A DNA stretch of 64,000 nucleotides, from the NCBI RefSeq assembly GCF_040054535.1, contig NC_090787.1, forward strand, positions 21,076,001 through 21,140,000. The letters run 5' to 3'. The stretch comes from Antennarius striatus. Its lineage: Eukaryota > Chordata > Actinopteri > Lophiiformes > Antennariidae. The notes beneath the pieces were generated by a model, which was given only the letters and a program-made list of their open reading frames with translations, ran no database searches and was not told the DNA's origin. Of this stretch, positions 40,610-61,561 are shown one piece after another. Both the position numbers and the translations under genes were made by a program. Every line of letters begins with the position of its first letter. Position 1 is the stretch's first letter.

Positions 40610-41120
40610 ATAAATAAATAAAATGAATAAATGTAACTCAATGTAATGTAACTAAATGTAACTACTCCTTAATGTAACTAATAAATGTAACTAAGTGTAA
40701 CTCAGTGTAATGTAACTAAATGTAACTACTCCTTAATGTAACTAATAAATGTAACTAAATGTAACTCAGTGTAATGTAACTAAATGTAACTACTCCTTAA
40801 TGTAACTAATAAATGTAACTAAATGTAACTCAGTGTAATGTAACTAAATGTAACTACTACTTAATGTAACTAATAAATGTAACTAAATGTAACTCAGTGT
40901 AATGTAACTAAATGTAACTACTCCTTAATGTAACTAATAAATGTAACTAAATGTAACTCAGTGTAATGTAACTAAATGTAACTACTCCTTAATGTAACTA
41001 ATAAATGTAACTAAATGTAACTCAGTGTAATGTAACTAAATGTAACTACTCCTTAATGTAACTAATAAATGTAACTAAATGTAACTCAGTGTAATGTAAC
41101 TAAATGTAACTACTCCTTAA
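40610..41120. repeat. 64-bp minisatellite, about eight units
   Basis: The marker ACTACTCCTTAATG recurs at 40661, 40725, 40789, 40853, 40917, 40981, 41045 and 41109, always 64 bases apart. Each unit is itself built of imperfect GTAACTAAAT sub-repeats. It forms the interior of the element that continues to 41515. Confidence 0.95.
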
Positions 41121-41515
41121 TGTTAAATAACTGAATTTCTGACTGATTCTAGTTCCAAACATTACAGTTAGACAGAAAAAACATGTTTGTTTGTTTCTCT
41201 GTTCTAACATAAATCCTTTTCATTTGTCAGGTTATTAAACCCACAGAACTCCATCAATCAAGGATCAAACTATCAATCAATAAAGAAAAATAACATCAGA
41301 CACAAGTTAGGACATGAACTTTGTTCAACATGTTTTTGTCAAAGTTGAAATGGGGTTACTTACTGCATTGTGGGAAATGTAGTTTGTGGTCAAAGCATAC
41401 TTTTAACCATTTATTTTTAGACACTCTGACCTTTTATGCTCTTGCGGGCCACAGAAATTGATGTGGAGGGCCAAATTTGGCCCCCGGGCCTTGAGTTTGA
41501 CACACGCGTTGTAGA
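40610..41515 (+). mobile_element. MITE-like repeat, copy with expanded internal array
   Basis: From 41120 to 41512 it is nearly identical to 44164-44555. It ends GGCCTTGAGTTTGACACACG, the terminal sequence of a common fish non-autonomous element. The left terminal inverted repeat was not found, so that end is truncated or replaced. Confidence 0.7.
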
Positions 41516-47373: not shown

Positions 47374-47721
47374 GTCAATCAGTAAATCACATCTACATCA
47401 ATCAGTGAATCATATGTACATCTATCAGTAAATCACATGTACATCTATCAATAAATCACGTCTACATCAATCAGTAAATCACGTCTACATCAATCAGTAA
47501 ATCACATGTACATCAATCAGTAAATCACATGTACATCAATCAGTAAATCACATGTACATCAATCAGTAAATCACATGTACATCAATCAGTAAATCACATG
47601 TACATCAATCAGTAAATCACGTCTACATCAATCAGTAAATCACGTCTACATCAATCAGTAAATCACGTCTACATCAATCAGTAAATCACATGTACATCAA
47701 TCAGTAAATCACAGCTACATC
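47374..47721. repeat. 23-bp minisatellite, about 15 units
   Basis: Tandem ATCAATCAGTAAATCACATGTAC units with ATG/GTC variants, occupying over a third of cerkl intron 13. Confidence 0.93.
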
Positions 47722-50940: not shown

Positions 50941-51042
50941 TTAGGAAGTGCTCTCTCTCTTGTCGCTTTTAGGTACGTAGTCCCAGCTGTCTCGCCGAAA
51001 CTCTTCCTTATTCTTCTGGAAGTCCCTTTTAAAGAAACCAGC
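50941..51042 (-). CDS. itga4: itga4 last coding exon (cytoplasmic tail)
   Basis: Codes for AGFFKRDFQKNKEEFRRDSW then DYVPKSDKRESTS and a TAA stop. GFFKR is the membrane-proximal motif that binds the beta tail. RRDSWDY keeps the paxillin-binding and PKA-phosphorylated serine context known for human alpha-4 (ENRRDSWSY). The residues after it differ from the mammalian tail. Acceptor GTCTCTCAG|GC. Confidence 0.93.
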   Translation of the reverse strand, partial: AGFFKRDFQKNKEEFRRDSWDYVPKSDKRESTS

Positions 51043-52568: not shown

Positions 52569-52629
52569 GTGTATGTGTGTCTGTGTGTGTGTGTGTGTGC
52601 GTGTATGTGTGTGTGTGTGTGTGCGTGCA

Positions 52630-52675
<46 letters not shown>
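52569..52675. repeat. (GT)n microsatellite abutting an itga4 splice donor
   Basis: On the itga4 strand the exon end is followed by GTAC(AC)n for about 107 bases with a few CG/CAT interruptions. Confidence 0.93.
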
Positions 52676-52676
<1 letters not shown>

Positions 52677-56135: not shown

Positions 56136-56845
56136 TGAGAGGTAGCGGTAGAGATAAAGGTAAAGGTAGAGATAAAGGCAGAGGTAGAGGTAAAGATAAA
56201 GGTAGAGGTAGAGGTAGAGGTAGAGGTAGAGGTAAAGGTAGAGGTAGAAAGAGAGGTAGGGGTGGAGGTAGAGGTAGAGTGAGAGGTAGAGGTGGAGGTA
56301 GAGATAGAGATAGAGGTAGAGTGAGAGGTACAGGTAGAGGTAGAGGTAGAGGTAGAGGTAGAGGTGGAGGTAGAGATAGAGGTAGAGTGAGAGGTAGAGG
56401 TGGAGGTAGAGATAGAGATAGAGATAGAGGTAGAGTGAGAGGTAGAGGTAGAGGTAGAGGTGGAGGTAGAGATAGAGGTAGAGGTAGAGTGAGAGGTACA
56501 GGTAGAGGTAGAGGTGGAGGTAGAGATAGAGATAGAGGTAGAGTGAGAGGTAGAGGTGGAGGTAGAGATAGAGATAGAGGTAGAGTGAGAGGTAGAGGTA
56601 GAGGTAGAGGTGGAGGTAGAGGTAGAGTGAGAGGTTGAGGTAGAGGTGGCGGTAGATGTAGAGATAGAAGTAGAGGTAGAGTGAGAGGTATAGGTGGAGG
56701 TAGAGGTAGCGATGGAGGTGAAGGTAACGTGGAGGTAGAGGTAGAGGTAGAGGTGGAGGTAAAGGTAGAGTGAAAGGTAGAGGTAGAGGTAGAGGTGGAG
56801 GTGGAGATAGAGGGAGAGGTGGAGGTAGAGGTGGAGGTAAAGCTC
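56136..56845. repeat. (AGAGGT)n-type purine array, about 700 bp
   Basis: Hexanucleotide units AGAGGT, GGAGGT and AGAGAT in higher-order combinations. On the itga4 strand it is almost pure pyrimidine. Open frames across it on both strands (RGRGRG, LYLYLY, TSTSTS) are artefacts of the repeat. Confidence 0.95.
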
Positions 56846-60201: not shown

Positions 60202-60278
60202 TGCGGCAGCACCAGTTGAGCTGACAGCTGCATGTTTGTTGAACAGCTCACCAGAAAGCAGGATCGAGCAAACCGCGT
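60202..60278 (-). CDS. itga4: itga4 coding exon (thigh end)
   Basis: 25 codons and two bases: TRFARSCFLVSCSTNMQLSA then QLVLP. It aligns with INFARFCAHENCSADLQVSAK, with both cysteines conserved. Acceptor CTGTCAG|ACG, donor GCCGCA|GTAAGA. Confidence 0.9.
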
Positions 60279-60299: not shown

Positions 60300-61200
60300 T
60301 CAATAGTTAGTATGAATGAAGCAGTGCACAACAAATAACCTGACCTTTGACCCTGACCCTAGCCTTACAAATGGCAAATAATCTCCTAAATCCTTCCCAT
60401 ATGTTAAATCAGGAGCTGAGATGACTGATCTTTGTTAATGCGCTGCAGATGGAAATACATCTGGTTCTGCAGCAAGTCGTTTTGAGTATATGCAAGGGAC
60501 CACACAGATGTTCCCTCCCTTTAAATCAGTTTGGTGATGAACAGACTTTGAAGCAACAGCAAAGTGGTACTGAGCTGCATTTGATTTAGTGTATTGTTAT
60601 CTATAAATATGTCTTTAAACAGTTAAATGCATGAATGATGGCTCAGAAGCATTTCCATTCATAGCCTGTTGAAGTGTTGACCTCACTTCAGCTCATGTTG
60701 GTTGCACGCAGGTGTCTATGTTGGCATGCTTTGGCAAAAATGCTAGATCAGAACCCATCAGCTATAATCTGACAACGAATTTCAGCTTGTTACAGCTTTT
60801 TAACTTTTGAATTTACATGCAGATATCTGAAAGTGGTACAAGAGGGAGTTAGTGTGGTGCAGATTATTCATTATTTGAATGTCTACAACTTGGACACAAA
60901 ACATGACAAACACTGGGCACCCCAAATAACCGTCAGATAATAGCAAATGGGTTCTGAGATTGACAATTAATAACAATAAATATTGGATTTTTATTCAGCA
61001 CTCAAAAAGAGTTGTAATATTCAAAAATGTTAATTTGTCTGGTTGTCAGAAATGATGAAAAATAAGTTGCACTATCAGGTGCTATTTACTTTATTCATTG
61101 GTTTATTTAACAGAACATTTCTGTAAATGTGCCAGAGTTCACCCAGGAGCTCTTTTTCGTTTGGACAGGGTTGGTCTTACCACTAGTTGGTAACTAGCTA
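60300..61200 (-). other. itga4: itga4 intron, unassigned part
   Basis: AT-rich intronic DNA. No exon, element or repeat was recognised. Confidence 0.4.
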
Positions 61201-61220
61201 GAGACGTTACAGGTTGCTAC

Positions 61221-61420
61221 CTGGTTGGTGTTATCTCTAGCTTGAACATGGTTGGTGATATCTCTAGCTTCAACCTGGTTGGTGATATCTCTAGCTTGTA
61301 CCTGGTTGGTGATATCTCTAACTTGAACCTGGTTGGTGATATCTCTACATTGTACCTGGTGGTGATATGTCTAGCTTGTACCTGGTTGGTGATATCTCTA
61401 CATTGTACCTGGTTGGTGAT
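61221..61420. repeat. 27-bp minisatellite containing a 5' splice site
   Basis: The plus-strand marker CTGGTTGGTG (or variants) recurs at 61221, 61248, 61275, 61302, 61329, 61356, 61382 and 61409. Spacing is 27 bases, except 26 once. The last copy includes the end of the itga4 exon and its donor; the others lie in the intron. Confidence 0.93.
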
Positions 61421-61561
61421 AGTGTTCTGGTGCCCTCCACTCTGCTGCAGAATGGGTTTTAACGGGGTGAAGGTTTTAGATGAGCCTCTTTGGGTGTGTG
61501 TTTCTTTGTGACTGTAGGAAACTTCAAACTGGATTGGAGTAAAAATGTCCCTCACGTCTTT
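61409..61561 (-). CDS. itga4: itga4 coding exon (thigh; adjoins donor minisatellite)
   Basis: 51 codons: KDVRDIFTPIQFEVSYSHKE, then THTQRGSSKTFTPLKPILQQ and SGGHQNTITNQ. It matches KDVRDILTPIQIEAAYHLGP and PPLQPILQQ of human alpha-4. The HVISKR proteolytic site of mammals is replaced by ETHTQRGS. The chosen donor ACCAG|GTACAA is the first of about eight tandem copies of the same sequence, so the exon end is uncertain in vivo. Confidence 0.85.

Follow-up and report, generated by a model that had tools for sequence, protein, structure and literature searches.

A 27-bp minisatellite spanning a 5' splice site of itga4 in Antennarius striatus, with apparent relatives at the corresponding junction of other fishes

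Minisatellites bearing the donor of an exon are already known from human ABCA7, where such an array has been linked to disease risk. According to the available part of the study, the VNTR in ABCA7 intron 18 consists of 25-bp units, takes in the donor of exon 18, and ranges from ~12 to 427 units in length (PMC5954066). The cryptic donor residing one unit into the array is used, retaining one 25-bp unit; the skipping of exon 19 depended on array length, whereas the retention of the unit did not (PMC5954066).

The array in itga4 of Antennarius striatus belongs to the same donor-including type, since it spans (61421–61221) the own donor of its exon (61408). As in the ABCA7 description available, a short-unit array includes the donor of the exon, and a donor copy opens each unit. 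To this type, the itga4 case adds coding bases in the repeat (13 of them, whereas the ABCA7 array starts at the GT), a frame kept at the second donor (the unit is 27 bp long, whereas the retained 25-bp unit of ABCA7 shifts the frame), and apparently related copies in other fish orders, a feature distinguishing it from ABCA7 as described. At the same time, length variation and RNA effects have been documented for ABCA7, whereas the itga4 array is known here from the sequence of one assembly. The array is real and was well described by the initial annotation, whose status of a VNTR and whose suggestion that array length could alter integrin isoforms between individuals are putative; still, the view of a splice site within a VNTR as “rarely described” needs qualifying in light of this close precedent (PMC5954066). 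What is new is the comparative trace of this junction that the predicted peptides suggest for other fishes.

Other documented systems are more distant. The dual-specific splice-site arrays of UBC resemble the itga4 array in having AG/GT at unit boundaries and in that a variable unit number could be kept; as far as the source describes them, the UBC intron is a multiple of the unit with both its ends in the array (PMC10809524), whereas the modelled itga4 acceptor (60279) lies outside. A tandem duplication over an exon–intron boundary copying a splice signal is reported in PMC4974935, the part available dealing with an intron 1/exon 2 boundary where a new intron was made; in itga4, it is the donor that has been copied, without implying the gain of an intron. 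VNTR6-1 in TERT intron 6 is likewise an intronic VNTR tied to alternative splicing, an effect which in itga4 is putative. Unlike the itga4 array, it is situated ~3.5 kb upstream of exon 7, is proposed to act via G-quadruplexes, and the accessible portion of the report mentions no splice site in its unit (PMC11830802). A literature search for itga4 splicing in fishes, with most subscription papers outside its scope, returned nothing on that subject.

The window, i.e., the whole 64-kb stretch of DNA analysed, originates from a 548-Mb assembly of A. striatus (42 contigs). On its minus strand lies the 3' part of itga4, modelled as 17 exons (the first one clipped at the window edge) that join into a single ORF of 596 residues ending with the stop codon at 50943–50941 (−). 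The top solved relative of the predicted product is human integrin alpha-4 (9p95, E 7e-101; 3v4p was also matched), and its Pfam matches comprise three integrin Ig-like domains (PF08441, PF20805, and PF20806). The nearest named orthologue among the 120 listed (of 334 found) is Brachionichthys hirsutus, the spotted handfish (89%). Since the alpha-4 structure, the Ig-like domains, and the alpha-4-named orthologues all agree, the predicted product identifies the gene as integrin alpha-4; this is in line with the initial assignment of gene and thigh exon. The modelled acceptor before exon E5 is separated from the end of exon E4 by an intron of 1130 nt. The features of the locus are collected in Table 1.

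Table 1. Features of the itga4 exon end and its minisatellite (window positions), and conceptual peptides following the homologous exon in sequences of other fishes
Feature	Positions	Strand	Donor G	Remarks
Exon E4	61409–61561	−		153 nt, phase 0 to phase 0; C-terminal part of thigh domain, end ...GHQNTITNQ; assigned from translation, alpha-4 matches, continuous ORF
Partial unit 0, exonic	61409–61421	−		TATCACCAACCAG; 13 nt, 0 mismatches to unit 1; likeness lost just upstream
Donor 1	61408	−	61408	CAG/GTACAA; ancestral junction by orthologue alignment
Unit 1, 27 bp	61382–61408	−	61408	would read VQCRDITNQ upon use of donor 2 (61381)
Unit 2, 26 bp	61356–61381	−	61381	begins with donor 2, CAG/GTACAA; one base short
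Unit 3, 27 bp	61329–61355	−	61355	same sequence as unit 1
Unit 4, 27 bp	61302–61328	−	61328	CAG/GTTCAA
Unit 5, 27 bp	61275–61301	−	61301	CAG/GTACAA
Unit 6, 27 bp	61248–61274	−	61274	CAG/GTTGAA; final bases CAT
Unit 7, 27 bp	61221–61247	−	61247	translation VQARDNTNQ
Array end	61161–61220	−	61220	CAG/GTAGCA at 61220; decayed unit ~61193–61161; GTG/GTAAGA at 61180
Exon E5	60202–60278	−		starts TRFARSC; supplies last residue of junction N-Q-T sequon
P0127, post-exon peptide				VLTNSNTS; no NQ copy
P0128, post-exon peptide				VLLRSSIRW LPASADVNQ LPANAETNY; 9-codon spacing, doubled
P0129, post-exon peptide				VMASANSNQ F; 9-codon spacing
P0130, post-exon peptide				VPSRRNITS; no NQ copy
P0131, post-exon peptide				VPTGTSDTNQ LLTLNQ; first NQ at codons 9–10
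P0132, post-exon peptide				VLTLADVTDTLVLTINQ VQAS; first NQ at codons 16–17
P0133, post-exon peptide				VITSTNTNQ NTITNQ VITSTNTNQ NTITNQ ELSSANTNQ; repeats VITSTNTNQNTITNQ

Exon E4 terminates inside the minisatellite: its last 13 bases lead into seven full units, all of 27 bp except for a single 26-bp one, that extend to 61221. TRF reported the array at 61218–61421 with a period of 27, 7.6 copies, and 88% matches; together with the seven full units and the decayed one, this bears out the initial count of about eight repeats into the intron. The claim that the 27-bp unit lies across the exon end and its donor holds insofar as the array covers both, but the exonic share amounts to only 13 nt and not to a whole unit. 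The units differ by up to five bases from each other. The score of the decayed unit was reached by 2 of 500 dinucleotide shuffles with unit 7 as the probe and by 17 of 500 with the consensus. Owing to the presence of this decayed unit beyond 61220, the array is apparently fresher near the exon and older farther away.

Seven of the eight unit boundaries carry CAG/GT and one carries CAT/GT, so that the AGGT typical of UBC-type arrays is found here as well. The row of CAG/GTACAA or GTTCAA donors reported initially was confirmed for five boundaries, i.e., CAG/GTACAA at four (61408, 61381, 61355, and 61301) and CAG/GTTCAA at one (61328), but not for the remaining three (CAG/GTTGAA, CAT/GTTCAA, and CAG/GTAGCA). 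Donors 1, 2, 3, and 5 possess an identical 9-mer, CAGGTACAA, with a U1 duplex energy of −7.1 kcal/mol computed from the U1 sequence; the donor scores were based on donor frequencies. The modelled donor of itga4 exon E14 is the same 9-mer.

Donor 2 (+27 nt) is the sole inner unit-boundary donor keeping the frame, and the translation agrees with the 27-base in-frame insert VQCRDITNQ predicted for it from the outset. Because unit 2 has 26 bp (61381–61356), every unit boundary from +53 on (up to +188) is out of frame, as had been recognized, and the respective donors lead to stops at codon 206–251 of the partial CDS, far before its end. The predicted outcome for most donors in the array is a premature stop and not a new isoform. 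A weak site, AAT/GTAGAG at +60, is in frame, too. The E4 frame itself stays open until the TAG at 61219–61217, i.e., as far as the initial annotation had stated. The predicted insert would fall at residue 178/179 of the partial protein, near the end of the Pfam thigh match (25–183) and before calf-1 (190–325); it would add one cysteine while the N-Q-T sequon across the junction is retained. An N-x-S/T sequon at the E4/E5 junction is present in 108 of the 119 listed orthologues possessing this region.

The highest score among the 15 donor-like sites tested belongs to GTG/GTAAGA at 61180; this site was discarded as a true donor since the exon-frame stop precedes it. Masking of the donors by RNA structure was too weak a signal to be used (z −2.08; 5 of 200 shuffles fold equally well).

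Searched against its own 548-Mb assembly, the stretch of 341 bp yielded a single match, and so did the 261-bp array, the latter in a comparison scoring only the best candidates and skipping very common words. A 24-base unit pattern allowing up to 3 mismatches had five matches in the assembly, all within the array (reversed control, one). The minisatellite is confined to one locus rather than belonging to a dispersed family: an origin from a transposon or a dispersed repeat was rejected because the unit pattern has no match beyond the array in its own assembly, where the array matches once. A search for relatives of E4 in viral and prokaryote contigs found none. Other arrays with a period of at least 10 make up 2.4% of the window; therefore, of the 32 splice sites modelled for itga4, an accidental overlap would be expected at 0.76, and the overlap of a minisatellite with a splice site alone is not in itself improbable. 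Chance does not account for the copying of the coding end of the exon together with its donor, nor for the apparent presence of similar copies at this junction in other fishes.

Comparison of the exon end in related species, proposed initially as a check, displayed the donor-1 junction in most of them. In the listed set (120 of 334 proteins, clustered at 90%, which can hide isoforms), the junction region is present in 119 (P0115 lacks it), and 117 of these have no insert at the donor-1 junction as read off the alignment, most of them exhibiting NTITNQ/T or a close variant. Judged by this alignment, the junction at donor 1 is the ancestral one. The possibility that the exon normally ends at a later donor was discarded, the donor-1 junction being common to the orthologues. 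The listed set includes 12 ‘lgn’ orthologues (other species), which are probably transcripts since their contigs are only 2.6 to 5.6 kb long, and all of them display the donor-1 junction; this finding speaks against a frequent use of inner donors.

The two exceptions are P0062 from Etheostoma spectabile and P0081 from Scomber japonicus. The gene model of the former, a darter, reads VTNQ[VQASANTNQLPANANTNQ]TSF, the insert consisting of two 9-residue units that resemble the window units and sit exactly at the junction; the model of its congener Etheostoma cragini (P0030) has no insert there. This insert is only suggestive as a sign of inner-donor use. A search centred on it (14 proteins at E <= 0.1 among 131 candidates) revealed no second protein with such an insert, and the four proteins newly listed by it lack it. 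In S. japonicus, the extra LPSFF at the E4/E5 junction probably reflects an upstream acceptor or a gene-model error; it is taken as an acceptor-side shift because it reads like a pyrimidine tract.

Further traces came from a read-through query extending from the exon into the array, which gave, out of 350 candidates, 10 short frames with E <= 0.01 (P0127–P0136). Peptides of this kind display exon-frame copies only. Seven of the frames have percomorph-like exons and three outgroup-like ones, a split which, as all lineages of these sequences, was guessed from exon peptide identity alone. The exon of P0129 is identical to that of Xiphias gladius in 51 of 51 positions, P0131 matches Scophthalmus in 50 of 51, and P0133 matches Pleuronectes platessa in 46 of 51. 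The flatfish-like P0133, residing in a 32.5-kb contig, has its own 15-residue (45-bp) unit, VITSTNTNQNTITNQ, containing the exon end and a possible donor.

A copy of the terminal NQ within 25 intronic codons occurs in 5/7 percomorph-like and 0/3 outgroup-like frames (null, 167/5966; binomial 3e-7), NQ at codons 8–9 in 2/7 and 0/3 (10/5973; 6e-5), and NQV, a possible second CAG/GT donor, in 2/7 and 0/3 (11/5966; 7e-5). These figures are only a guide, because the motif was picked after seeing the data, the null frames were drawn from the window rather than from the species concerned, the query included the array, short frames favour stop-free introns, and copies outside the exon frame escape notice. 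At its minimum, the coding distance to the window units amounts to 2/27 for the first darter unit (to unit 7), the null minimum being 6 with none of the 5973 frames reaching 2. It equals 5 for the second darter unit, 6 for P0129 and two pieces of P0133, and 7 to 11 for the other percomorph-like pieces, of which the 11s (P0131 and P0132) and the 10 (first piece of P0128) are not unusual; the outgroup-like frames yielded 12 to 14. Unit 7 was the closest, alone or tied, of six window units to 11 of the 12 percomorph peptides, in a comparison run without the 26-bp unit 2, the decayed unit, and two re-cut peptides.

Taken as peptides, these traces suggest copied exon ends in the darter model and in billfish- and flatfish-like sequences in addition to the window, so that the duplication seems to be either an old or a repeated event among percomorphs. 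The shared 9-codon spacing favours one old duplication, and the differing units and spacings of P0131–P0133 favour recurrence. The age is not proven by either, since copies of one exon end look alike even after independent duplications.

The explanation we favour as a whole, with confidence modestly above even, is that the minisatellite was born at the itga4 locus by an early percomorph duplication and that donor 1 operates as the main site with some leakage to donor 2. Its groundwork, i.e., the anatomy of the array, its single place in the assembly, the identical donor 9-mers, and the reading frames, was observed directly. The last 13 coding bases and the first 14 intronic bases were presumably duplicated in tandem, giving a row of copied 5' splice sites. 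We infer that donor 1 stays the main site, given its status as the ancestral junction and the coding constraint on the exon end. Through leakage to donor 2, VQCRDITNQ would be placed in frame at the thigh/calf-1 border, with an extra cysteine and the junction sequon kept. The donors farther in give premature stops, so their products would probably be subject to RNA decay; by analogy with ABCA7, mainly donor 1 use, some donor 2 use, and decay of the rest are to be expected. The first duplication is probably older than the split of several percomorph orders, and the arrays may have re-expanded or decayed later lineage by lineage. Against the whole explanation stand the nearest named orthologue, B. 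hirsutus, with no insert at the junction, P0127 and P0130 lacking the NQ copy, and P0131 and P0132 with copies at other spacings.

Several alternatives deserve consideration. An essentially neutral intronic minisatellite, with donor 1 nearly always used, the inner donors silent, and the product unaffected, is a substantial possibility that we place somewhat below even chances: the uniform junction of the ‘lgn’ orthologues is in its favor, as is the abundance of minisatellites in the window even without counting the itga4 array. It is harder to reconcile with donor 2 equalling donor 1 in its 9-mer and computed U1 pairing energy, with the insert in the E. spectabile model, and with the use of the second-unit donor in the comparable ABCA7 array, as described in the available part of that study (PMC5954066). 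The exon end may also be a hotspot inherently prone to tandem duplication, so that the arrays arose independently in several fish lineages; this idea, to which we give about one chance in three, accommodates the 45-bp unit of P0133, the deviating NQ positions of P0131 and P0132, and the absence of the E. spectabile insert from the E. cragini model. It sits less well with the 9-codon spacing recurring in the window, P0062, P0129, and P0133 and doubled in P0128, or with the closeness of the first E. spectabile unit to unit 7 of the window.

It is improbable, in our opinion, that the choice of donors is regulated, with array length or inner donors tuning itga4 dosage via decay of frame-shifted transcripts. 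That +27 alone among the inner unit-boundary donors keeps the frame and the others run into early stops would suit such a role, but the retention of the VNTR unit in ABCA7 was, in the available description, independent of array length (PMC5954066). Tandem repeats misassemble easily; still, the divergence between the units and the similar copies at the same junction in sequences of other sources make an assembly artefact very improbable. A broader extension of the favoured explanation is speculative and rather unlikely: a splice-site minisatellite might have persisted or re-formed at a single 5' splice site throughout the radiation of the percomorphs, often in steps preserving the frame (only in-frame copies being visible), and might feed variable linkers of 9 or more residues to the alpha-4 thigh/calf-1 border in several lineages.

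The itga4 array could serve as a natural test of donor choice by the spliceosome where identical donors lie at growing distances, and of whether an intronic repeat is maintained by coding constraint on the end of an exon. Elsewhere in the gene, at 52569–52676 (−), the modelled E12 donor ATG/GTACAC runs directly into a long CA microsatellite and is therefore a second itga4 donor adjoining a tandem repeat. The intron between E8 and E9 harbors an (AGAGGT)n hexamer array at 56138–56839 (117 copies, 79% matches by TRF). Downstream of itga4, TRF also revealed minisatellites at 47375–47721 (23 bp x 15.1, 94% unit identity) and at 40621–41123 (64 bp x 7.9, 98% unit identity).
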